NCBI GenBank assembly: GCA_021808485.1
Contig: JAKBBN010000027.1
Location: 1 to 38,479 of the forward strand
Origin: Planctomycetota bacterium
GTDB taxonomy: Bacteria > Planctomycetota > Phycisphaerae > WQYP01
Direction: 5' to 3'
DNA length: 38,479 nucleotides
Part shown: positions 11,446 through 24,260 of the stretch, piece after piece
Layout: each line of letters begins with the position of its first letter
Position numbering within the stretch: the stretch's first letter is position 1
The notes under the pieces: generated by a model
What the model was told of the DNA's origin: nothing
Seen by the model: the letters and a program-made list of their open reading frames with translations, nothing else
Database searches by the model: none
Made by a program: the position numbers and the translations under genes

Positions 11446-12435
11446 CTATTCGCCGGGTGTTTCCGGGGGCCAGGCCCGCCCCAACGCCCGCGGACCGGGT
11501 CGATTTTTAGCCATTACCGCCAATGCCAGCAGAGCGGCCGCGTACGGTAACATTTGAAACCATTGAAATGGGATATGCTGCAGCGATTCCAGCAGGCGGT
11601 TATGCGCTGTGTAGCGCGCGGTCTGCAACACCTGCTGCAGGGCATTGATAAACCCGAACAGCAGGCAACCGGCCGTAAGGCCGAACAAATTCCAGCGGCC
11701 GAAAATAACCAGTGCGAGTACCACAAATCCCTGTCCGCCGGTCATATCCGCGGCAAAGGAATGGGTGCGCATAATGCTTAAATAAGCTCCCGCGGCGCCG
11801 GCACAGCCTCCGGCAAACAGCACCGCGCCCCACCGCCATGCCCGAACGCGAATTCCCGCGGCCTGACACGCTTCGGGAAAGTCTCCAAGCGATCGAATAA
11901 TCAGTCCCAGTCGTGCGTAGCGCAGCAACCACCAGACCAGAATTCCCAGCAGGATCGTGACATAACACAACGTGTACTGATCAAACAACGCCGGCCCGAA
12001 GAATGGCGTGCGGCTCAAAAACGGCAACGGCCATTTGTGAAAGCCGGCGCCATGCGGCAATGAAACGGACATGTCATGCTTTTGCCGCCAATTTTGAAAT
12101 ACGGCCCAGGCCGTGCCGCTGGCGCCGACGGCCAAAATATTGATCGCCGCTCCGCAGACTATTTGATCCGCCCGGCCGGAGACGGCGACGGTGGCAAACA
12201 TCGCCGCCAGTGCCATGGCCCCCAGAATGCCGGCACACAGTCCGATTGATCCGTAACCGCAACTCGCCGCGGTATACGCCGCGATACAACCGGTCAGCAT
12301 CAAACCCTCAATACCGATGTTGATCACACCGGCCAGTTCCGCCACCAGTTCGCCAATGCCGGCCATGACCAGGGGAACCGCGGCGGCGATCATCTGTTGG
12401 GCCAGAAAAGTGACAATGTTTTCACCCGCGGCCAT
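11446..12435 (-). CDS. BMP-type nucleoside ABC importer, permease 2 (YufQ-like)
   Basis: A 329-residue integral membrane protein of the BPD_transp_2 permease family, with about eight to ten membrane segments. The early motif ELAGVINIGIEGLMLTG is the hallmark of the YufQ/NupQ-type subunit, and AGIRVRAWRWGAVLFAGGCAGAAGAYLS is the cytoplasmic EAA-like loop region that contacts the ATPase. Together with the preceding permease it forms the channel for nucleosides or a related ligand. It follows the other permease after 3 bases and is the last gene of a four-gene minus-strand operon. Its end faces the end of the HAF-repeat gene 38 bases away; no clear terminator hairpin is seen between them. Confidence 0.9.
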   Translation of the reverse strand: MAAGENIVTFLAQQMIAAAVPLVMAGIGELVAELAGVINIGIEGLMLTGCIAAYTAASCGYGSIGLCAGILGAMALAAMFATVAVSGRADQIVCGAAINILAVGASGTAWAVFQNWRQKHDMSVSLPHGAGFHKWPLPFLSRTPFFGPALFDQYTLCYVTILLGILVWWLLRYARLGLIIRSLGDFPEACQAAGIRVRAWRWGAVLFAGGCAGAAGAYLSIMRTHSFAADMTGGQGFVVLALVIFGRWNLFGLTAGCLLFGFINALQQVLQTARYTAHNRLLESLQHIPFQWFQMLPYAAALLALAVMAKNRPGPRALGRAWPPETPGE

Positions 12436-12438
12436 GGT

Positions 12439-13509
12439 TCAACGCCCCTCCGTTGCGGCCGCATCCACCTTTGCGGTTGGAGATATCCGGCGGCGATTAA
12501 TAAATGCCAGCAACAGCAGCATGACCAGCAATACCGTACCTTTGACGACATCGGCAATATTGTGAGGCAGTCCGAGGGAGCTTTCCTCCACGCGCAGGGC
12601 GCCGGTATCCAACATGCCGAAAAACAGCGCCGAAAACGCAATACCCAAGGGATTCAACCGGCCCAGCAGGGCCACGGCGATTCCCGCGTAACCGTAGGAG
12701 CCGAAATTCGCGATCAAAAAATGCGTGACACCCAACACCTGAAACGCGCCTCCCAGTCCGGCAAGGCCGCCGCTGACGAAAATCACGGTCATCTGCTGAC
12801 GCGCCACCGGAATGCCGGCCAATTGCGCGGCGCGCGGGTTGAGCCCTGTCACCAGGGTTTGAAATCCAAAAACAGTTTGCCGATTCACCACATACAACAG
12901 CGCCGCCAGACAGAATGCCAACAGGACGCCGATGTGCAAACTGGAAAATTTGATCAGCACCGGCAGCCAGTAGCGACCTTGAATTTCCGCGCTCTGCGGA
13001 GCGGAGGTGCCGTGTGCCTGCAGCGGACCGCTGAGAATTATTTCCACCAGATAAAATGCCACAAAATTCAATAAGATTGTCGACAGCACCACGGGAACGC
13101 CGCGCCATCGTTCCAGCGCACCGGCCAGTACCGCCCACAGTCCGCCGCCAACAGCACCGCCGACGACAGCAATCACGATTGTCGGCATTACCGCGGGAGT
13201 GACCTGCCATCGAGTAGCCAAGCCGACACTCACCATGGCGCCGATAAGAAACTGCCCCTGCGCGCCGATATTCAGCACGCCGGACCGAAAGGCGATTCCG
13301 GCGGCCAACCCCGTCAGCAGCAGCGGGCATGTTTCCGCCAGTGAATTGCTGATGTAGTACGAATTGCCCACGGCGCCAATCAGCCAGCGGTGCAGGATTC
13401 CAAGCGGGGGATACCCGCACGCCCACAATACCAGGAGCACCGCACCGAATGCCGCAGCGCAGGCCATTACAGTGGCCCCGACGGACAGCAGACTTTGCCT
13501 GATTTTCAT
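12439..13509 (-). CDS. BMP-type nucleoside ABC importer, permease 1 (YufP-like)
   Basis: A 356-residue permease of the same family as its neighbour. GVLNIGAQGQFLIGAM is the YufP/NupP signature, and AGIPVARQQMTVIFVSGGLAGLGGAFQVLG is the coupling-loop region. About ten hydrophobic segments are predicted by eye. It pairs with the YufQ-like permease encoded 3 bases downstream and is preceded by the ATPase gene, 16 bases upstream. Known systems of this arrangement import purine or other nucleosides; the exact substrate here cannot be read from sequence. Confidence 0.9.
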   Translation of the reverse strand: MKIRQSLLSVGATVMACAAAFGAVLLVLWACGYPPLGILHRWLIGAVGNSYYISNSLAETCPLLLTGLAAGIAFRSGVLNIGAQGQFLIGAMVSVGLATRWQVTPAVMPTIVIAVVGGAVGGGLWAVLAGALERWRGVPVVLSTILLNFVAFYLVEIILSGPLQAHGTSAPQSAEIQGRYWLPVLIKFSSLHIGVLLAFCLAALLYVVNRQTVFGFQTLVTGLNPRAAQLAGIPVARQQMTVIFVSGGLAGLGGAFQVLGVTHFLIANFGSYGYAGIAVALLGRLNPLGIAFSALFFGMLDTGALRVEESSLGLPHNIADVVKGTVLLVMLLLLAFINRRRISPTAKVDAAATEGR

Positions 13510-13525
13510 CGCAGGTCTCCGTGAG

Positions 13526-15016
13526 TCATGCCCGCACTCCCAGCATCAGCCGTCCGATGGATTCCCGCGAGGTATGCGGCCAATCCGTGTCGCTCAGCTG
13601 GCCTTCATACATCACCGCCACCCGGTCACTCACGGCCAGCAGTTCATCAAGATCGGCATGAATCAGCAAAACCGCAGCACCGGCATTCCTCGCCCGGACG
13701 AGTTGATTCATCACAAATGCCGTAGCGGTAATATCCAAACCACGCGTGGGATTGACGGCAAGTATGAATTCCGGGGAATCGGACAATTCCCGCGCCAACA
13801 CCAGCTTTTGCTGGTTGCCGCCGGAGAGCGCCCCCACCGGCGTATCAAGGTCGGGGCAGCGGATATCAAACTCCTGCATTCGGCGAAGGGTAAATGACCG
13901 CCACGTGGAGAATCTTAGAAATCCCCAGCGGGCGAATGGCGGTTGATGATGGCGTTTAAGCAGCATGTTGGCCGTTACGGATAAACCGGGAACAAGACCA
14001 TCGGTTCGGCGATCCTCCGGGATTATCGCAAGCAGTTGCCGCCTGCCCGTCCTTTGCGGTGCGGAATCGCGCGTTGTGGAAAGCGTCATTTTACCGGCGG
14101 CCGGCAGGGTCGGATCGGCAATGCACTCCACCAGTGCGGATTGACCGTTCCCTTCCACTCCAGCGATGCCGACTATTTGGCCGGAATGCACCTGCAAAGA
14201 TACATGGTGTAGAACGATGGATGCCTCCCGCTTGACGGTGACATCCGCGAGTGCCAGGCGAGCCTCCCCTCCGACGGGCGGCGGGGGACGGGAAATTGCC
14301 TGCGGAACATTGCCACCGATCATTTTTTCCGCCAACATTGCATGCGTCAAACCGGCCAATTCGCCGGTATACACCGCATCGCCGCGCCGCAAAATGGTGA
14401 TGCGGCGGCAAATTTCCGTCACCTGGGCAAGTTTATGGCTGATAAACAGCACCGCTGTACCGGATGCGGCCAGTGAGCGAAGCGCGGCGAACAGGTCCTC
14501 CACTTCCATGGGAGCCAGAGAGGCGGTTGGCTCATCTAGAATCAACAGCTTGCCGCCCGCACAAAGTGCCTGAATAATCTCGACACGTTGACGCTGGCCG
14601 ATTGCAAGACGTGATACAGGTTCATCCAGCGGCAGCCGCCAGCCCAGCCTGTTCTGCCATTCTGCGGCCCGCGCCGCCACAAGGCGCCGGCCTCCGGAAA
14701 TAAGCCCGCGGCCCGCCAGGAGAATTATATTTTCCATTGCGCTCAGGGCCGGCGCAAGCTTGAAATGCTGGTGCACCATCCCAATTCCCATCCGGCGTGC
14801 AACGGCCGGCGACGTTATGCGCACGGGCGCCCCGTTGAACAGTATCGTACCGGCATCCGGCGGAAGCAGGCCGAAAAGAATGTTCATCAAGGTTGTTTTG
14901 CCGGCCCCATTTTCACCGACAACGGCGTTGATTTCCCCTGCCTGCACCCGCATGGAAACATTGTGCAATGCCCGAAAAATTCCGAAGCGCTTGCTGATAT
15001 TGCGGATTTCCATCAT
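13526..15016 (-). CDS. BMP-type nucleoside ABC importer, double ATPase (YufO-like)
   Basis: A 496-residue ATPase with two nucleotide-binding domains, the usual form for this importer family. The first has Walker A GENGAGKT (34-41), signature LAIGQRQRVEI (a variant of LSGGQ) and Walker B LLILDEPTASL. The second has a degenerate Walker A (VEGNGQSALVE), a good signature LSGGNQQKLVLARE and an altered Walker B (LAVNPTRGLD, Asn-Pro in place of Asp-Glu), which is also typical of the family, so one composite ATP site probably carries the hydrolysis. I prefer the ATG-ATG at 15016; a GTG at 15043 is in frame. It lies between the binding protein and the permeases in one operon. Confidence 0.92.
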   Translation of the reverse strand: MMEIRNISKRFGIFRALHNVSMRVQAGEINAVVGENGAGKTTLMNILFGLLPPDAGTILFNGAPVRITSPAVARRMGIGMVHQHFKLAPALSAMENIILLAGRGLISGGRRLVAARAAEWQNRLGWRLPLDEPVSRLAIGQRQRVEIIQALCAGGKLLILDEPTASLAPMEVEDLFAALRSLAASGTAVLFISHKLAQVTEICRRITILRRGDAVYTGELAGLTHAMLAEKMIGGNVPQAISRPPPPVGGEARLALADVTVKREASIVLHHVSLQVHSGQIVGIAGVEGNGQSALVECIADPTLPAAGKMTLSTTRDSAPQRTGRRQLLAIIPEDRRTDGLVPGLSVTANMLLKRHHQPPFARWGFLRFSTWRSFTLRRMQEFDIRCPDLDTPVGALSGGNQQKLVLARELSDSPEFILAVNPTRGLDITATAFVMNQLVRARNAGAAVLLIHADLDELLAVSDRVAVMYEGQLSDTDWPHTSRESIGRLMLGVRA

Positions 15017-15116
15017 GTCAACACAAGCCCTTGACCCATGCACGCGAACCGCAGGCCCGCGGATACCGGCCGCATTTCATCAATTCCGATTCACAAAAAC
15101 CTCGCCCGAAATGCGT

Positions 15117-16148
15117 TTAATGCCCCGCAACGGACAATGTTCCCGCCTTGAGCCTGCGGCCCGCGGCAGCCAGGGCCGAGCGCATCCGTGGGGTAATGAC
15201 CGAGCCAAACAGTCTGGGATTGAGCACCACCAGACAAACGCCGTTGTGCAGGTTCTCCGGCTTTATTCCCGCGGTGAATTTGCCCGTTTTTACCGCCAGC
15301 GCCACCTGCATAAAGGCCCGATCCAGCCGGATGACAGCGCTGGCCGGCGTAAATTTAGAGCAGGTTGAATTGTTGTTTTGATTGCGATTGCAGCCGAATA
15401 CGTAAATGGGATCGCCCCCTTTTTTTACGCGGCGGTCCGCCTGAGCCACGGCCTCAAATACCCCCTTGCCGGCGGCATCCACATTCTGGTAAATGACGTC
15501 AATATGCTGCTGGATAAACGCTTCAGCCTGGCTCTTGGAAAGGGCCGGCTGGTCCCAGCTTGTGTAGGCCTGGGCCACGCGGATGTGCGGATTGACGCTG
15601 CGTGCCCCGGCACGAAATCCCCGAAAACAGGCTGTTACGGAGGGAATTTTCTCACCGCCGATGAACCCGATTTTCCCGGTTTTTGACAGCATTGCCGCCA
15701 ACATTCCCAGTTGATACGAAGGCTCGGTAAGGTCAAAGTTCAACGTGGCGATGTGCGGTTTGGCAATGTCCGCCCCGCTCACGGCGAAGCGCGTTTTCAC
15801 CCCCTGTGCGGCGACCTGCGTCGCAGGCACCAGAAATTCATATCCATGCCCGATGACCAGTTGATAACCGCGCATGGCGAAATCCCGCATCACGTTCACC
15901 GCCCAGACCGGGGACACTCGTTCCACCACGGAAACGCGGGCGTGAAGTTTTTTGCCGACCCGCTCAATGGCGTCGCGTCCTTCCTGATTCCAGCCGCCGT
16001 CAGTCACCGAGCCGGAACAGATTAATGCAATTTTCATTTTGGCCAGACACGGCTTGCCGTGCACAGTTGCCAGAATTACCGGCAGAATAACCCACAACAG
16101 CACCGCGATCCGGCGAGGATTGAATAACAGCGGCAGCTTAAACGGCAT
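15117..16148 (-). CDS. BMP-family (PnrA-like) substrate-binding protein
   Basis: A 343-residue periplasmic binding protein. An N-terminal signal (residues 12-36) precedes the type I binding fold, which starts MKIALICSGSVTDGGWNQEG, the BMP/PnrA signature for nucleoside binding. Other family segments are YQLVIGHGYEF, TRFAVSGADI and IYQNVDAAGKGVFEA. A cysteine (KPCLA) is near the cleavage region but does not fit a standard lipobox, so it may be soluble. AAGGAG lies five bases before the ATG. It is the first gene of the importer operon (binding protein, ATPase, two permeases), all minus strand, with 100 bases before the ATPase start. No promoter was found in the 83-base gap upstream. Confidence 0.92.
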   Translation of the reverse strand: MPFKLPLLFNPRRIAVLLWVILPVILATVHGKPCLAKMKIALICSGSVTDGGWNQEGRDAIERVGKKLHARVSVVERVSPVWAVNVMRDFAMRGYQLVIGHGYEFLVPATQVAAQGVKTRFAVSGADIAKPHIATLNFDLTEPSYQLGMLAAMLSKTGKIGFIGGEKIPSVTACFRGFRAGARSVNPHIRVAQAYTSWDQPALSKSQAEAFIQQHIDVIYQNVDAAGKGVFEAVAQADRRVKKGGDPIYVFGCNRNQNNNSTCSKFTPASAVIRLDRAFMQVALAVKTGKFTAGIKPENLHNGVCLVVLNPRLFGSVITPRMRSALAAAGRRLKAGTLSVAGH

Positions 16149-16220: not shown

Positions 16221-16245
16221 GCCGCGGGAACTTATTCACCGCGGC
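16221..16245 (-). terminator. hairpin at the end of the AsmA/DUF748 gene
   Basis: On the minus strand GCCGCGG and CCGCGGC (7-bp stem, 11-base loop) enclose the stop codon of the giant gene, and TTTT follows a few bases later (16216-16213). It may reduce read-through into the BMP importer operon. The stem is short and the T-run is displaced, so this is tentative. Confidence 0.35.
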
Positions 16246-19200
16246 GCTTCACGCGTACGAGGGTAAGCGACATGTCACCGCCATTCACCGATTTCACGGG
16301 CTTTATCTGTGGAAATACAATGTGCACGCGCGCTGCGGCATGATCCACGCCCGACCTGATCAAAAGCGCTTTTATGATTTTTTCACGCCGCTGGGCAATT
16401 AGAATGGCGACCCCACGGGTGCGTCGCACGGCCTGGCGCGATGCACCAGGTTCCAATATGGAGGCCAAAAAGCCGATCGCCCGGGTGCAATCCGTCAGGC
16501 GATGATTCAACCGCGTAAGTTCCACGCGGTTAAGATTCACGGCGGCGGAACTGAGGCGTATGGCAACTTTCGCCTGCAACCGCCCCACCATTACCACCCG
16601 CTGCCGCAGCAGTTGCATCTGCCGGCGGCGCAGCGCATTGATCAATTCAACGGCCTGACCCGGGGTGGGATTGGCGCGACGCCGCGCCACCGCCATGTCC
16701 GCGGTGCTGATGACCTGCCGCACCACTACCTGAAGCGAATCGTGCGTACGCAATAAATGAATGACGCGGTTCAGGTTTTTTCCACCCTGCCAACTCAGGC
16801 CGGTCTGGCCGGGGGCGTAGTGGATGATCTCGGGGGGCCAGGGAGCGGGTACCGCCTTGCCTCCCCCAAAAAGGCCGTTGGCAAGCTTCAGCGGCGAACT
16901 TGCAATTCCGATGGCAATCGCTTTGGCCAGCGATCCGATAACCCCGCCTTCCACTGCGGACATGGATATGTGGGAGTGGCGAACCGGCACGCCGAATGAA
17001 AGCGTGATTGACCCGTCGGGCGCCTGTATGGCCGCCACGGCAACATCCAGCGGGGTGGGTAATTTCAAAACTCCGGCCAGCGGTCCTTTCGCAGGCTCGG
17101 AGAGCTTAAGATCGGTAAATACGAGTTTCACGTGCGTATCAATGTGCCGCGGGCTCAATAGACGCGTATCCGTGGAACCATCAAATACGCCGCCGTCGAG
17201 CGTAACGCCATACTTGGCCGCCGCATCATGAAACTCCGCAAGTTCCAGACCATTTAAGCTGCCCTGCACCCAGCCGTGCAGCTTCGGATATAAATACAGC
17301 TGCCCGCTGGCCGCCATTTGTGAAAACAATTTTCGGCGCGATGGGACCGGCCTCCGGGGGACCGTGGCGCGATTTATTGGAGACGGTGCAGCCGACCGAC
17401 GCGAGGGCCTTTTGATACCCGCCGGAACACTCAAGGCCTTACGGGTGGGCGTTTTTGTTTGTGCCGCCGCCAATGTTGGTTTGGCCTGATGCACGGCTCC
17501 CGTCACGAGCTTTGCAACCTCGGCCGGCTTTTTTCCGACCGGCAAATGGCCGACCGATGAAGATTGGTCAATTGACACACGCTTTGCATAGGCCAGGACA
17601 TCAAAACGGATCGGCGCCGGGCGGTGCAGGGCAGCGCTGCTTATATCCCGAGCCTCGGCTTCCATGCCGGTTACCGGGATACGAATATGCAGTCCATGAT
17701 CAAGAAATGAAAAATGACAGCCGCTGATGACCACACGGCCAATCGCAAATTGCGTCGCCGGGCCGGCAGCGACGCCAGCGGCAGTTGGAACAGGGGCATT
17801 CGTTGCCGGATAGGCCTGCGGAGCGGTCCGAACCGACTGCACGGATTTAGCGCCGGCCTTGCCCGGTGTTTTGCTCGACGGTTTGGCCAACACCAATCCA
17901 GCTGCGATCAGTTGATGCTGCTGGCGAACAATGATGCATCGCGGCGAAAGAATGTTCAGCAAAGGAATATTGATGGAATGCTGCGCCGGCGTCACTTCTA
18001 TTTTATCCGATGAAATTTCCTTAATGCCCGCCCAAATGCGCCCCCCCGGTCTTCGCTGAAAGCCGACGTTCTGAATTTTGGCGGCAAGCCTCATTGGTTG
18101 CGAAAAGTCAAAAGCGATAGGTGAAGTACGATTCATTTCGCATTGTACACTGGCATCCATTGCAAATTGGCCATCCTTCAGGCCCGCCGGATCGAACACC
18201 TTGCCGAAAACCGGCAGGATGCCCGCCAAGCCCGTGCCGCGAATTCCGGAAAGCTTCAGTTGCATGCCCACGCGCGGCACATTGGCGAACGGCCGCAGAC
18301 GCAGCCCGATGGAAAACGCATGTACCAGGCGGCCGGCCCGGCCGCGAATCACAAGCTGCGCCGGCGGCTCAGCCGCCGGCTTCGGGCCAAGAAAGCGCAT
18401 GGGCAGCCTGTTGGCCAGTTCCAAATTTGTTAACCGCAAAGTTATTCCGGAAGTTTTACCCGGATCCGCGCTTGTACCGGTTGAGCCAAACCGGGGAAAG
18501 TTTTGCACAACAATGGACTTCGCTTTTAACCGCAGTTTATGCACGACAACCAGCGGGAAAGCCGGCACGGCCGCCAATTCGCGCATCCCCGCCGCATGCA
18601 CGGGCGACACCATCGGACCCGTGGGCCGCAGCGGCCGCCCGGCTTCGGTCAGCCCCAGCGTGCTCCAATCCCCGTTTGCCCGCCGTTTAATCAGCAGGGA
18701 TTTAACCGTGATCCCGGCGAGATTCACCGCAATCAAGTGTCCGGCGGGATCCAGACGATCCGCGGTTAACGCGGCATTGCTTATGTTCAGCAGGGTTTGT
18801 GCAGGCCGTTGGGCTGCTCCGGGCGCCGCAGGATCCGCTTGCGAGAGAATCAGCGAATTCAACTTCATCCCGGCTGATATGCCCCCGCTCAAATTGTGCC
18901 TTAATTCCATGGATCCATCGAGCGTGAGTTTTCCATCATGCAGCGTGGGATTAACCGTTCGTGGAAAATATGGCGCCAGGGACCGCAGTGAAAGACCGGA
19001 AACGGCAAGATTCAATGCGGCCCGGCTGGCGCCGCCCTGGGTCAATGCGGCAAAGCGCGACGAAAGCCACAATTCCCGTACGACACCCGGAATGGCGGCG
19101 TGAATTGACAAGTGACTCCAGTGCCGGCCGACAACCTGCCCGATTCGCACATGCGATGCCGCCACATCCGCGGAAATATGCAATTCCACCGGCTTGTAAA

Positions 19201-21757
19201 CGTCGGAATCCGTCCACACCAGGCCCGCGTCCTTAACCGTCACCCGCCCCAACGAAAGTTTAATCGGTCCGCCGCCTTTCGCGGCGCCTTTCGGCAATAT
19301 GGGACCGCCTTGCCCGGCCGGTTGAAGCGGCGCCAATCGCAGCCCCAGCAGTTCTAGGTCCGCCGCGCGGGTGCGATGAATATTAATCCACGGTTTGCTG
19401 ATGCCCACCACCGCGGCTCGCAGATTTCCGGGGCTGACACTTATACCGGCCAACCGCAATGAGGCCATTGACGCCAGTGTATCGGCGCCGTTGATAAGTT
19501 TGACGCCGGATATATGTACTCCGCCGGTATAACCCTCGGCGGTGCGGTAGATATGGCCGCTGAAATCAGCCTGAAATGCGCCACGAGACAGCAGCGGAAA
19601 AACACCGCGCGGTTTCAGGTACGGACCAAGCGGCAGCAAATCCATGCCATTGGCGGCAATGTTCATTTTCAGGCCCAGACTGTTTGCGCCGGGCACAAGC
19701 CAGCCGGAAATGGATGCGGAATCTATTAATCCCGGCGCCGTCAACCATGCCTGGATTGAACCGGTTTTAGGATGCGCCGAAACATGCTGCATATCCAGCA
19801 GAAAATTCTTTAATTTAAGACCGGCATGGGATATCGAAAAACTGCGCCCGGTCGCCAATGCCTTATCGACGAAATTCACACGAATATTGTGCCAGTCAAA
19901 TGAATCAATCTGAAGCCGCGGTGGAACAGTTGCCGCGGCCGCCGCCGTTTCGACTTTCCGCACTTTTTTCCGGGGAGGTGTGCCGAAGCGGAAACCCAGC
20001 AGGGACAATGCACCGGATTTTTCCCGGACAATATTCACCTCCGGACCGGACAGATCGATATTTCCTATTTCAAACCGCCCGGTGCGCGGGTTGATGCGCG
20101 CGGAATTGATATCAACATGCCGGAAATTGAGTAACGTGCGGCCGTCATTGGCAAACCTCAGATTCTGCATTTGAAGACCAACGGAAAGCGTTCCATCGGC
20201 ACTGCGACCCGCACTTGCCTTTAAGGCTAACCCGAGCGATCCATTATTCAGTTCGCTGGTAAGACCCGCCGCACGAAGATATGGCCGGATGGCCGCGGCA
20301 GTAATTTTGGATGCGTCAAAATGCAGCGCCACGCGGGCCGGATGAGCGAAGGGCAGCGAGGTACCGGCAATGATAAATGTGTTCATCAATCCGGGAATGC
20401 CGCCTTGGCCATTGATTTGCAAATGGAATGACGGCTCTCCCGGCAAACCGCCGGAATTAATGGCGGTTAAAGAATGCAACTGCAGCGTGATGACGTTTTG
20501 CGGTGTAACAGCGGCATCCAGAAAAGTGAATTTAAGGTTATTGATATGCAGAGCCTCGACGCCCAGCGAATAATGGCCCGCCGTGGATTTTGACTGACTC
20601 ACGACTTGCGCCGCGGCCCGCAAAACCGGGCTGGCCGCCACCGCCCTGGCCACGGCCCGGGCTTCAACCGCGTGCGGCGTCCTGACCGGCCGAGTGACGG
20701 ATGTTTTTTTCAGGAGAAGACCGGCAAATTGCAGCAGACCCGCGGCGGTGCGGCGGACATACACATGGCAACCGGTCAATGTCACATTCCGCAAATTCAT
20801 CAATTTGCCTTTTAATGCCGCGGAAACGGCCAGGTTCTTAATGCTCAGGGCCGGCCGGCTGCGGGTTGCGAGCAGCATATTGTTCAGGCCAAAGGTCATG
20901 GAAATCGAATTTTGCGGCGCCGCATGCACATGCAGTTGCGCATAGGCCCGTGCATGCATGGAAAGTCCCCGGGCGGTCGGTCTGATCCCCAACGATGCCA
21001 AGTATCCGGCGATCGGCTTTAAATGCAGACCCACCATAAAGATATTGGCTTTAGCCGCCAATGTATCGGCGGAATTGGTAACCGTGCCGCGAATACGCAA
21101 GGTGTCCAACATTGATCCGGACCAGAATGAAAGCCCAAACCGCGTCGGCCGGCCCTTGCGCCCGAGTTCCGACACGCGAACGTTCATATCCAGCCACGTG
21201 TCCACCGCGGGCTTGACATTCGTATCCACAAGATGCAGGACGAGATGCTCAAGGCGAAACGCCCGGATACGCAGCGGTGAGGAAAGCGATATCTTGGAGT
21301 TTGCGGCCGATCCGGCCGGCGTCGTGGATGATTGGGATAAAAGGGCGTGCAGCAGCGGCCCATTTCCCGCGGCATCGCGCCTGATAATTACTTTGGCGCC
21401 GTCCGCCTCCACGCGACGCAGGTACAGCCTGCCGGCAAACAATTGCAGCACCGAAACGTTGCCGTGACAATATTCACTGGTAAGCACCGACGGACCGCCG
21501 GAAGCGGGACGGATTTTCAAGTCCCATATACTCAAATCCCCGCCCAGCACACTTAAGCTTAACCGCTGATAGCTTGCGTTTAATCCGTAAAAACCCAGCG
21601 CATGCTGCAGCACGGCGGGCAGGATAAAAACCAGCGAAAGGCGGAATATAATTACCGCGGCGCCCGCAATCGCCAGAATGCGTATGGTCCGTTTTTTCCA
21701 CCTGCCTTGTGCCGGCGGCTGTCCGGCTGATGATGCCTTCGGATTGCTTTCAGTCAT
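16232..21757 (-). CDS. giant AsmA/DUF748-family envelope protein with OmpA-like C-terminus
   Basis: An 1841-residue protein with one N-terminal membrane anchor (about residues 26-48, after KKRTIRI) and a very long periplasmic part dominated by beta-rich AsmA-like repeats. Near 1558-1630 the sequence LPTPLDVAVAAIQAPDGSIT, then FGVPV and SPLKLANGLFGG, is the DUF748 hallmark. Residues about 1640-1841 (IIHYAPGQTGLSWQGGKNLN, later AQRREKIIKALLIRSGVD) resemble the OmpA-like end of DUF748 proteins. A basic Pro/Ala/Lys linker is at about 1405-1480. AsmA relatives (TamB, YhdP, YdbH) form hydrophobic bridges that move phospholipids between membranes; a similar job is inferred here. The start overlaps the stop of the lipoprotein gene by 4 nt. 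A giant single frame with no interruption argues for a functional gene. Confidence 0.85.
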   Translation of the reverse strand: MTESNPKASSAGQPPAQGRWKKRTIRILAIAGAAVIIFRLSLVFILPAVLQHALGFYGLNASYQRLSLSVLGGDLSIWDLKIRPASGGPSVLTSEYCHGNVSVLQLFAGRLYLRRVEADGAKVIIRRDAAGNGPLLHALLSQSSTTPAGSAANSKISLSSPLRIRAFRLEHLVLHLVDTNVKPAVDTWLDMNVRVSELGRKGRPTRFGLSFWSGSMLDTLRIRGTVTNSADTLAAKANIFMVGLHLKPIAGYLASLGIRPTARGLSMHARAYAQLHVHAAPQNSISMTFGLNNMLLATRSRPALSIKNLAVSAALKGKLMNLRNVTLTGCHVYVRRTAAGLLQFAGLLLKKTSVTRPVRTPHAVEARAVARAVAASPVLRAAAQVVSQSKSTAGHYSLGVEALHINNLKFTFLDAAVTPQNVITLQLHSLTAINSGGLPGEPSFHLQINGQGGIPGLMNTFIIAGTSLPFAHPARVALHFDASKITAAAIRPYLRAAGLTSELNNGSLGLALKASAGRSADGTLSVGLQMQNLRFANDGRTLLNFRHVDINSARINPRTGRFEIGNIDLSGPEVNIVREKSGALSLLGFRFGTPPRKKVRKVETAAAAATVPPRLQIDSFDWHNIRVNFVDKALATGRSFSISHAGLKLKNFLLDMQHVSAHPKTGSIQAWLTAPGLIDSASISGWLVPGANSLGLKMNIAANGMDLLPLGPYLKPRGVFPLLSRGAFQADFSGHIYRTAEGYTGGVHISGVKLINGADTLASMASLRLAGISVSPGNLRAAVVGISKPWINIHRTRAADLELLGLRLAPLQPAGQGGPILPKGAAKGGGPIKLSLGRVTVKDAGLVWTDSDVYKPVELHISADVAASHVRIGQVVGRHWSHLSIHAAIPGVVRELWLSSRFAALTQGGASRAALNLAVSGLSLRSLAPYFPRTVNPTLHDGKLTLDGSMELRHNLSGGISAGMKLNSLILSQADPAAPGAAQRPAQTLLNISNAALTADRLDPAGHLIAVNLAGITVKSLLIKRRANGDWSTLGLTEAGRPLRPTGPMVSPVHAAGMRELAAVPAFPLVVVHKLRLKAKSIVVQNFPRFGSTGTSADPGKTSGITLRLTNLELANRLPMRFLGPKPAAEPPAQLVIRGRAGRLVHAFSIGLRLRPFANVPRVGMQLKLSGIRGTGLAGILPVFGKVFDPAGLKDGQFAMDASVQCEMNRTSPIAFDFSQPMRLAAKIQNVGFQRRPGGRIWAGIKEISSDKIEVTPAQHSINIPLLNILSPRCIIVRQQHQLIAAGLVLAKPSSKTPGKAGAKSVQSVRTAPQAYPATNAPVPTAAGVAAGPATQFAIGRVVISGCHFSFLDHGLHIRIPVTGMEAEARDISSAALHRPAPIRFDVLAYAKRVSIDQSSSVGHLPVGKKPAEVAKLVTGAVHQAKPTLAAAQTKTPTRKALSVPAGIKRPSRRSAAPSPINRATVPRRPVPSRRKLFSQMAASGQLYLYPKLHGWVQGSLNGLELAEFHDAAAKYGVTLDGGVFDGSTDTRLLSPRHIDTHVKLVFTDLKLSEPAKGPLAGVLKLPTPLDVAVAAIQAPDGSITLSFGVPVRHSHISMSAVEGGVIGSLAKAIAIGIASSPLKLANGLFGGGKAVPAPWPPEIIHYAPGQTGLSWQGGKNLNRVIHLLRTHDSLQVVVRQVISTADMAVARRRANPTPGQAVELINALRRRQMQLLRQRVVMVGRLQAKVAIRLSSAAVNLNRVELTRLNHRLTDCTRAIGFLASILEPGASRQAVRRTRGVAILIAQRREKIIKALLIRSGVDHAAARVHIVFPQIKPVKSVNGGDMSLTLVRVKRRGE

Positions 21758-23160
21758 GGCTGAATCCTTTTGAGAAACGCCGGATTGCCCACCGCTTTAT
21801 CAAGAGCTGCATTTCGCCGATTAATCGGACCCAGCGGATGGTAGCCGGGAGGCGCCCAGCCGCGGCGGTTAAGCCAGTCAAATGCGCCAATGCGATCCGC
21901 CGGCGATGTGTCCTGAAGATAGATATAGTTTTCCGCAATAATCTGCCTTTCAAACAGCCTTCTGGACCCAAGCGCCCCGGCTATCTGATCCAGCGACGAA
22001 CTGTGATATGCCGCCTCGCCAAGATGCAGCGACAACACTGTCTGCAATTCCGGCACAAGCGGCGATTTCTTCTGCATGGTGTACAGGAATTCATAAGCGG
22101 CCCGATCCAGCTGCCAGCCCAGGTCCGCGACGGATAATCCGGGGGCTCCCGGCCGCACCGAGGTGAAAATATTTTCCGCCAGCGGTGCAAGTTGTGAATC
22201 GTTTACGGTCAACACCGTATCCTCGCACAAATGCGCACCGGTTTGAGCCGAAAGATAGATCAGTGCCGCCCGCCGGACCGATTTATCCCGCAGACGCCCC
22301 AAAGCCTCGACCAGGTCCGGACGGTTGAGTTTATCCGCGGTGCTCGCGGGCCGCAGCGGCGGTCTGGCGGCCAGAATCGCGGCATGTTCAAGCATGCCCT
22401 TATCAGCCGGACCGGCCGGACGAATATTTATTTCAACAGCCACCGCCTGTCCGCTCCCGGAAACGAAGCGGAATGGGAGAATAAAGGCATATTTCCCCGG
22501 CGCCGCAGGCGTGGCGACGATCTGCGTCTCACGGTTGAATGCCAGCCCACCCGCCGCGCCCGCGGACGAATACCGCGACGCCGCCAGCGCAATCTGGGGC
22601 TTAACCGGCGCCGGGCCGGCCGGCAACCAAATATCGACACTTACGACGGCCCGGTGCAGCGGTCCGCCGGTGTGACCGGCATATCTGAAATGGTCGCGCA
22701 GTTGAAAACGAAGATATGCACCGGCGAACAGACCCGATCGAATCGGCGCAAATGCCTTTACCCCGCCGGCGGCTTGCAGCATTTGCCGGGTAAACGTCGC
22801 CCGGGATTTTATTTCTCCGAATCGCGCCCCTCGCGTCAGGCGGGCAACGGAAAGTGTCGCCCGCCGCCCGCGACCGGTTAAAACCAGCGAATCCTGGCTG
22901 CCCAGCGGCGAAAGCATATTTTCCGGCATGCGATTGAGTATGAAAAACCTGGCATCCACAACCAGTCCCGAGGATGCCTTGCCGCCGGTAAAAACCGAAT
23001 ATCCGGAAAGAGGCGACCCGCCGTGAATATGCACCCGTTCATAGGCGACAGGCTGCTTCTGCACAACCACGGGGTGCACAGTTTGGCAGGCCTGCATGGA
23101 AATTGCCGCCAGAACAGCGGTTAAGATGCGCCACGGCAACGAAAGACGACCGGATCTCAT
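21754..23160 (-). CDS. lipoprotein of unknown family, coupled to the AsmA/DUF748 gene
   Basis: A 468-residue protein I do not recognise. It has a signal peptide ending in a lipobox-like SMQAC, giving lipidated C25 followed by Gln, compatible with outer-membrane sorting. Residues 30-280 look beta-rich; residues 290-330 (LVEALGRLRDKSVRRAALIYL) look like a HEAT-type helical pair, and a helical region follows to the end. It overlaps the 1841-residue gene by 4 nt, so the two are made together. E. coli YdbH works with a small lipoprotein, YnbE, which is a precedent for an AsmA-lipoprotein pair, although this protein is far larger and not similar to it. ATG 23160 is preferred (AAGGG eight bases upstream, normal signal peptide); GTG 23187 is in frame. 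Confidence 0.7.
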   Translation of the reverse strand: MRSGRLSLPWRILTAVLAAISMQACQTVHPVVVQKQPVAYERVHIHGGSPLSGYSVFTGGKASSGLVVDARFFILNRMPENMLSPLGSQDSLVLTGRGRRATLSVARLTRGARFGEIKSRATFTRQMLQAAGGVKAFAPIRSGLFAGAYLRFQLRDHFRYAGHTGGPLHRAVVSVDIWLPAGPAPVKPQIALAASRYSSAGAAGGLAFNRETQIVATPAAPGKYAFILPFRFVSGSGQAVAVEINIRPAGPADKGMLEHAAILAARPPLRPASTADKLNRPDLVEALGRLRDKSVRRAALIYLSAQTGAHLCEDTVLTVNDSQLAPLAENIFTSVRPGAPGLSVADLGWQLDRAAYEFLYTMQKKSPLVPELQTVLSLHLGEAAYHSSSLDQIAGALGSRRLFERQIIAENYIYLQDTSPADRIGAFDWLNRRGWAPPGYHPLGPINRRNAALDKAVGNPAFLKRIQP

Positions 23161-23320
23161 TGCAAAAGCCCTTACCTTCCATAACACCCAGCACTGATAA
23201 TTATGTTACCGCCTGCCAAATTCTTACTCAAGCCGCGTCAGTGGAAGCCGCGCTTATCCGGATATTAGCATAAGATTGCATTGCGTGTATCCGGAGAATT
23301 CACCGATCCATCGGGACGGT

Positions 23321-23349: not shown

Positions 23350-23402
23350 TTGGGCATTCATAATTCATGCTCAGCCGCGTCCGGCTGACAACCGAGGTAT
23401 TT

Positions 23403-24260
23403 ATGGCAAATACAAATCCGGGCAAATTGGCTCTCTGGCTGGTGATACTTGTCGTTGGGGGGGCCGGTGTTTTCTGGTTCATGCACCGCCCAAATCCGAA
23501 TCCGATCCGTGTTTACCCTACCAGCCGGGCGGCGCTGGCAAAAAAGTTTTTCCAACTTGTCGGCAGCAATCAGCCGGGCGGCTATCAAAAGGCCTTTGAC
23601 ATGATCAGCTGGCCCATCCGGAAAATGCACCGGAATCATGCCGGACGGTACCGCCAGCGCTTTGAAAATCTGAATGCCTATCTTACGGGACTGTTTGGCG
23701 CACAATGGGCCTCGCACATCCACGTAACCGCGACTGACGATTTAACCTCCGCCGGCAACGCAAAATGGCCTCTGACCGTGCGAATACGAACGGAGGAATT
23801 TCACCTGAAGATACAGAATCAGAACCGGTATTCCACTTCCGGAAGCTTAAGCCGCAATCATTTCGGCTTGACGGCTATACGCGAGTTTTCCTTTTCGGGC
23901 GGCGCTCGCGCCCAACAGGTGGCGGGAACATCAGACCTGCTGAACATGGTGGGCGCCGGCGGCGCGGCCCGGAATATTACCGGCATTTCCGCCGCCTACG
24001 GCAGTTCCGCCGACGAAAAGCCATGGCAAATCAAACAGCGGCTGCTGCCGGTGGTGGAAGATCCAAATACCGCCGGCCTGCAGCAATGCGTTTATCAACT
24101 CTGGCCCGTACGCAAGGATCCAACCGTGCGGCTGGTGCTCAATCGCATCGCTCATGATCATCGCTACGCCGTGAATATTCAGCAGGAAGCCGCGGCCGTG
24201 CTGGCCGGCCGGGTGGATAAAGCGATTCTGATCGGCAACGGCGTGGTTAACACAAAATAA
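23403..24260 (+). CDS. membrane-anchored protein of unknown function
   Basis: A 285-residue protein with a single N-terminal membrane segment (LALWLVILVVGGAGVFWFM, residues 9-27) and a periplasmic or extracytoplasmic remainder. I do not recognise the family. Residues 40-140 are helical with many aromatics; a beta-rich part follows; the last 60 residues (LQQCVYQLWPVRKDPTVRLV) look like a helical repeat. Its position, divergent from the lipoprotein/AsmA operon with a shared control region, makes an envelope role plausible. Start chosen at ATG 23403 (GAGG at 23394, five-base spacing); the frame is open to ATG 23367, which would lie just after the predicted transcription start. Its end faces the end of prmC, two bases apart. 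Confidence 0.7.
   Translation: MANTNPGKLALWLVILVVGGAGVFWFMHRPNPNPIRVYPTSRAALAKKFFQLVGSNQPGGYQKAFDMISWPIRKMHRNHAGRYRQRFENLNAYLTGLFGAQWASHIHVTATDDLTSAGNAKWPLTVRIRTEEFHLKIQNQNRYSTSGSLSRNHFGLTAIREFSFSGGARAQQVAGTSDLLNMVGAGGAARNITGISAAYGSSADEKPWQIKQRLLPVVEDPNTAGLQQCVYQLWPVRKDPTVRLVLNRIAHDHRYAVNIQQEAAAVLAGRVDKAILIGNGVVNTK

Follow-up and report, generated by a model that had tools for sequence, protein, structure and literature searches.

What do a lipoprotein and the giant AsmA-like protein encoded next to it do together in the envelope of a planctomycete? The question was raised by an earlier note, made from the letters alone, which proposed that the two proteins span both membranes, with the lipoprotein as outer-membrane receptor. 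The window, that is, the whole stretch of DNA analysed, has 38,479 bases and is one entire contig of a 3.3-Mb genome (93% complete, 147 contigs); its relatives in the collections are metagenome assemblies of Phycisphaerales and other Planctomycetota. The analysis below indicates that the pair is probably a dedicated lipid bridge together with its own outer-membrane lipoprotein. The genes are laid out as follows.

21754 to 23160, minus strand: lipoprotein gene, 468 aa from ATG (477 aa from GTG at 23187), of a family without a name
16232 to 21757, minus strand: gene for the giant, a DUF748 (AsmA-like clan) protein of 1841 aa (Pfam PF05359, E = 2e-73)
21754 to 21757, minus strand: stop/start overlap ATGA between the lipoprotein gene and the giant gene, read from the sequence

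The 4-nt overlap said to join the two genes is present as ATGA at positions 21757 to 21754, and the giant begins with an ATG. The longer form of the lipoprotein ORF (21754 to 23187, minus strand) starts at a GTG. An in-frame ATG, preceded by the purine-rich stretch GGAAGGTAAGGG, lies at 23160, the end given for this gene previously, and it is the better start because of that stretch and because it leaves a signal peptide of normal length. Around both genes, consensus promoters and terminators occurred at a frequency no higher than chance. Downstream of the giant and on the same strand (11446 to 16148) are genes for a PnrA-like (Bmp) substrate-binding protein, an ABC ATPase (two matched stretches), and two permeases. 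These make up a nucleoside-type ABC transporter that is not kept beside the pair elsewhere, and they were not counted in the system because neighbourhood clustering gave no shared third gene. Positions 23367 to 24260 encode a divergent protein of 297 aa that has a hydrophobic segment at its N-terminus and matched no Pfam or NCBIfam family.

The lipoprotein itself has three recognizable parts.

23086 to 23160, minus strand: signal peptide with lipobox ISMQAC; the lipidated Cys is residue 34 in the GTG form and 25 in the ATG form
22417 to 23046, minus strand: beta domain, residues 48 to 257 (GTG form), predicted by AlphaFold2
21763 to 22410, minus strand: helical HEAT-like domain, residues 260 to 475 (GTG form), predicted by AlphaFold2

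The SMQAC lipobox picked out in the earlier note is well kept, its Cys (Cys34 in the GTG form) being invariant in 22 of 22 aligned lipoproteins. The residue at +2 after the Cys is Q, A, G, or R, and Asp was found there in none of the 22. By the enterobacterial sorting rule, lipoproteins without Asp at +2 go to the outer membrane, a rule that may not hold in Planctomycetota. The +2 residues are thus consistent, and only consistent, with an outer-membrane location, which we infer also from the analogy with YnbE and TamL. Compared with the small YnbE, the lipoprotein studied here is, as had been stated, far larger, its mature form having about 440 residues and two domains. It matched no Pfam or NCBIfam model, and Foldseek gave no match to a solved fold with E < 1e-3, so no fold name can be assigned; the suspicion that this family is not a known one is borne out. 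The AlphaFold2 model, built from 22 sequences (mean pLDDT 82, pTM 0.50), shows a tether, then the beta domain, then the helical domain, with an uncertain placing of the two domains relative to each other. The helical domain is the best conserved part of the protein and weakly resembles designed alphaREP HEAT-like repeats (profile match, E = 0.01).

Several lines of evidence show that the pair is real and old. First, within a set of 28 same-family genomes, strong lipoprotein scores came from eight besides the window's own, and the giant occurred in eleven besides it, with a further match that was weak and short; the giants standing alone within this set were all at contig ends. Second, profile searches found the lipoprotein in 23 of 347 genomes of the class and in 32 of 392 genomes of a phylum sample, the window's genome included. 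This gives a total of 54 genomes (23 plus 31 more, own included) from about 18 Planctomycetota families. Third, when the DNA around these lipoproteins was read, 55 separate loci had the lipoprotein first and the giant next on the same strand, with lipoproteins as little as about 21% identical to that of the window. The gene pair is therefore conserved in relatives, a point on which the earlier note had made its proposal depend. The sole lipoprotein outside these loci is L117, which sits at the end of a contig. Finally, lipoprotein distances and giant distances are correlated across 49 loci (r = 0.90; 0 of 999 permutations were as high), which fits one co-inherited unit and shows co-inheritance, not contact. 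Within the stretches read, neighbourhood clustering detected no third gene common to the loci, and only common ABC ATPases and small groups of close relatives recurred. Most complete members of the giant family are open frames of about 1620 to 2000 aa. One of the 55 loci, L188 (G514:C78:16000-33000), is a second copy of the pair with a decayed giant, fragmented across several frames, and an open lipoprotein frame. In L176 (G464:C365), a shared open frame of 2579 aa had the appearance of a lipoprotein-giant fusion; this was rejected because the last 45 lipoprotein residues lie in another frame, and the fusion is probably a sequence frameshift.

A reverse test, in which 392 genomes were searched with a profile of the giant's end, recovered the same genomes and a few more, and six further giant loci were read. 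L218, L219, and L220 are cut by contig edges. The giant-type genes in L216, L221, and L217 lie mid-contig without the lipoprotein, which means that the lipoprotein is not always needed. L216 encodes 1641 aa and has 2.1 kb visible upstream, where the lipoprotein is absent; L217:7128-9257 (G472:C211) is a 710-aa frame with the C-terminal third of the giant only; and L221 is a further giant copy in its genome. In the last of these (L221:1130-7993, G514:C23), a Wzz/GumC-like segment and a low-complexity GAET/SDSAS stretch open the giant-type DUF748 frame with no stop between. The neighbours of L221 look like polysaccharide export genes, and the frame is either a true fusion or an assembly chimera. 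None of the canonical DUF748 genes examined in the class and the phylum (about 1000 to 1320 aa, similar in size to EpaF of Pseudomonas aeruginosa) adjoins such a lipoprotein, which ties the lipoprotein to the giant subfamily. Judged by where the genes occur, the dependence is stronger for the lipoprotein than for the giant. Very many Phycisphaerae also carry a short ORF (about 260 to 340 aa) matching the first ~160 DUF748 positions only, like a stand-alone N-terminal domain (for instance, G097:C108:19147-19626 and G076:C1:2656762-2657256; compare the small PA2708 of Pseudomonas).

This pattern of occurrence bears on the main rival of the bridge reading, that the lipoprotein is cargo. On this reading, which follows a proposal made for GspN and surface lipoproteins, the groove of the giant would shield the acyl chains of the lipoprotein and deliver it to the outer membrane or across it. 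The lipoprotein was never found beside anything but the giant, while a few giants stand alone, and its large, two-domained form is unlike a simple plug; moreover, GspN, which is AsmA-like, is needed for the surface placement of certain lipoproteins (PMC12802150). However, a bridge of 1841 residues would be costly for one cargo, and GspN acts with a type II secretion system, whereas no linked shared neighbour of any kind is found here, so that we regard the lipoprotein as cargo as unlikely. That the two proteins are co-transcribed and serve the same envelope without contact, the lipoprotein being, for example, a peptidoglycan or lipid-metabolism factor, would suit the few giants that lack the lipoprotein and the fact that co-inheritance alone means functional linkage and not contact, but it is improbable, as exclusive two-gene linkage over 55 loci at such low identities with no third gene is the pattern of obligate partners.

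If the pair is instead a lipid bridge with its own lipoprotein, the giant would have to reach across the periplasm. Its parts are as follows.

21623 to 21679, minus strand: single N-terminal membrane anchor, about residues 27 to 45, from hydropathy
16955 to 21601, minus strand: putative beta-groove body, about residues 53 to 1601; the modelled part starts at 962 and has about 20 long strands
16235 to 16834, minus strand: C-terminal OmpA/Pal-like domain, about residues 1642 to 1841, split by a helical hairpin at about 1699 to 1767
16697 to 16699, minus strand: Asp1687, invariant in 43 of 43 sequences
16385 to 16387, minus strand: Arg1791, invariant in 43 of 43 sequences, aligned with the Arg of the OmpA/Pal LSxxRA motif

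The giant scores 248.4 bits against the Pfam DUF748 model, for which the gathering cut-off is 50. Its description as a single-frame giant with one N-terminal anchor holds: the 1841 aa are uninterrupted, and hydropathy found no second hydrophobic segment in the window's protein besides that at about 27 to 45. The DUF748 match spans residues 20 to 862 and is followed by a second one within 863 to 1446, which argues for a longer groove than in canonical members. An AlphaFold2 model of the C-terminal 880 residues (962 to 1841; pLDDT 80, pTM 0.65) consists of about 20 long strands followed by a beta-alpha-beta unit, a helical hairpin, a long helix, and two strands. Its top solved match was TamB in TamAB (Foldseek E = 3.7e-3, prob 0.90), the E-values being weak. 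The AsmA-like beta repeats reported earlier thus agree with the DUF748 membership and with the predicted fold of the C-terminal half. The long hydrophobic beta groove stands in part and for the C-terminal half only: the strands are long and TamB is the top match, but hydrophobic alternation between strand faces exceeded that of shuffled strands only modestly (45/5000 for the family and 337/5000 for the window alone). By our own estimate, a body built throughout like the modelled part, with about 20 strands in 630 residues, would have roughly 50 strands and measure about 240 Angstrom. In length and predicted fold, the giant could therefore span a periplasm.

The likeness to TamB in the TamAB complex, the best solved match of the groove, would also suit a TAM-like role. 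The giant would then chiefly serve as a scaffold on which outer-membrane proteins or lipoproteins are assembled, the lipoprotein would be its docking subunit, and lipid transport would be minor. TamL of Bacteroidota, the lipoprotein partner of TamB, seems to be no lipid transporter (PMC12045153). However, the lipoprotein here gave no beta-barrel or POTRA-like match with Pfam or Foldseek, and EpaF, the DUF748 protein that has been characterised, is tied to lipid homeostasis of the outer membrane, with direct transport a deduction there too; we consider such a role doubtful. The giant has no match to TamB (PF04357), and no TamB-family gene was found in the 93% complete genome; one MCE protein was found in it.

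The C-terminal end of the giant is of a different kind. After TamB, many Pal/OmpA structures were matched by Foldseek (prob mostly 0.9 to 0.99, target TM mostly 0.55 to 0.74, with weak E-values), and one of these structures was determined together with a peptidoglycan peptide. When the hairpin was removed, a profile of the end matched Pal (4g4v) with E = 0.0008. In a plain profile comparison with a genuine OmpA of the same genome only 25 residues were aligned, which means that the Pal match becomes visible only once the hairpin is removed. Of the Asp and Arg with which OmpA/Pal domains bind diaminopimelate, the Arg of Pal aligns with Arg1791, and the invariant Asp1687 lies in the loop corresponding to that of the Asp but is shifted by about 2 to 3 residues. 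Even with the hairpin removed, the end does not reach the Pfam PF00691 cut-off (14.7 bits versus 27.2). The OmpA-like end claimed in the earlier note is thus upheld by a predicted fold that matches Pal/OmpA structures, though its sequence match stays below the Pfam cut-off. The further claim that this end lies near peptidoglycan is strengthened by the invariant Asp and Arg and by the fold, from which we infer peptidoglycan binding. Residues 1447 to 1841 also match DUF748 profile positions 786 to 925 (E = 0.0017, below the cut-off). A canonical DUF748 relative passes PF00691 with 33.1 bits, and in canonical DUF748 ends (for example, L225:7622-8401 and L189:8185-8964) the OmpA model matches in two halves around an insert. 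On these sequence matches, a split OmpA-like end seems to be general to DUF748 proteins, of which no statement was found in the literature accessible to the search.

The lipid bridge could work as follows. The N-terminal helix would hold the giant in the inner membrane, and the beta-groove body would cross the periplasm and offer a hydrophobic path for phospholipids, the presumed cargo. The split OmpA-like end would bind peptidoglycan beside the outer membrane and so fix the far end. The acylated Cys, on its flexible tether, would fix the lipoprotein to the outer membrane's inner leaflet, and the beta and HEAT-like domains may act as a receptor that docks on the giant's far end, so that no gap is left between the groove and the membrane. 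The modest face alternation, the weak Foldseek E-values (best, 3.7e-3), the three giants without the lipoprotein, and the enterobacterial origin of the sorting rule speak against this bridge. What the pair offers is a concrete partner for a DUF748 bridge. The lipoprotein is the likely outer-membrane partner, a component that is missing for most such bridges, and the split OmpA-like end, present also in shorter DUF748 proteins, suggests how the far end may be held at the cell wall.

Comparison with known systems places the pair among AsmA-type bridges and apart from each of them. PA4735/EpaF of Pseudomonas aeruginosa is listed as PF05359 (PMC10900882, Table 1); in that paper it belongs with YhdP, TamB, and YdbH to a redundantly essential set on which growth and an intact outer membrane depend. 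For the function of DUF748, EpaF is the only guide available here. EpaF (1088 aa) belongs to the same Pfam family and is AsmA-like, whereas the giant is about 1.7 times longer, and no lipoprotein partner is named for EpaF (PMC10900882), whereas the giant has an adjoining lipoprotein gene. The canonical Planctomycetota DUF748 proteins share the giant's split OmpA-like end. GspN of type II secretion is, like the giant, an AsmA-like beta-taco protein linked to lipoproteins, but it belongs to a secretion system, whereas there are no shared neighbours around the pair. TamB-TamL of Bacteroidota is, as here, an AsmA-type bridge with a lipidated partner, and TamB is what the giant's groove resembles best among solved folds. 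However, TamL is a TamA-like barrel with POTRA domains, whereas the lipoprotein here is beta plus HEAT-like, and that essential pair is not encoded in a single operon, whereas the lipoprotein here is encoded next to its bridge. YdbH-YnbE of Escherichia coli, in the account of a review citing Kumar 2024, is likewise an AsmA-like bridge with an outer-membrane lipoprotein. YdbH, however, is PF11739, and identity of the pair with YdbH-YnbE was rejected, as the giant matches DUF748 only and the lipoprotein is large and unlike any Pfam family. The literature search found no lipoprotein partner for DUF748 and no paper on this pair. The known lipoprotein partners are thus those of YdbH (YnbE) and TamB (TamL), and the lipoprotein described here resembles neither. 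We put it at an even chance that, after YnbE and TamL, it is a third and unrelated type of partner lipoprotein among AsmA-type bridges, and for DUF748 the first; large and with two domains, it would dock a peptidoglycan-anchored giant bridge to the outer membrane in Planctomycetota.
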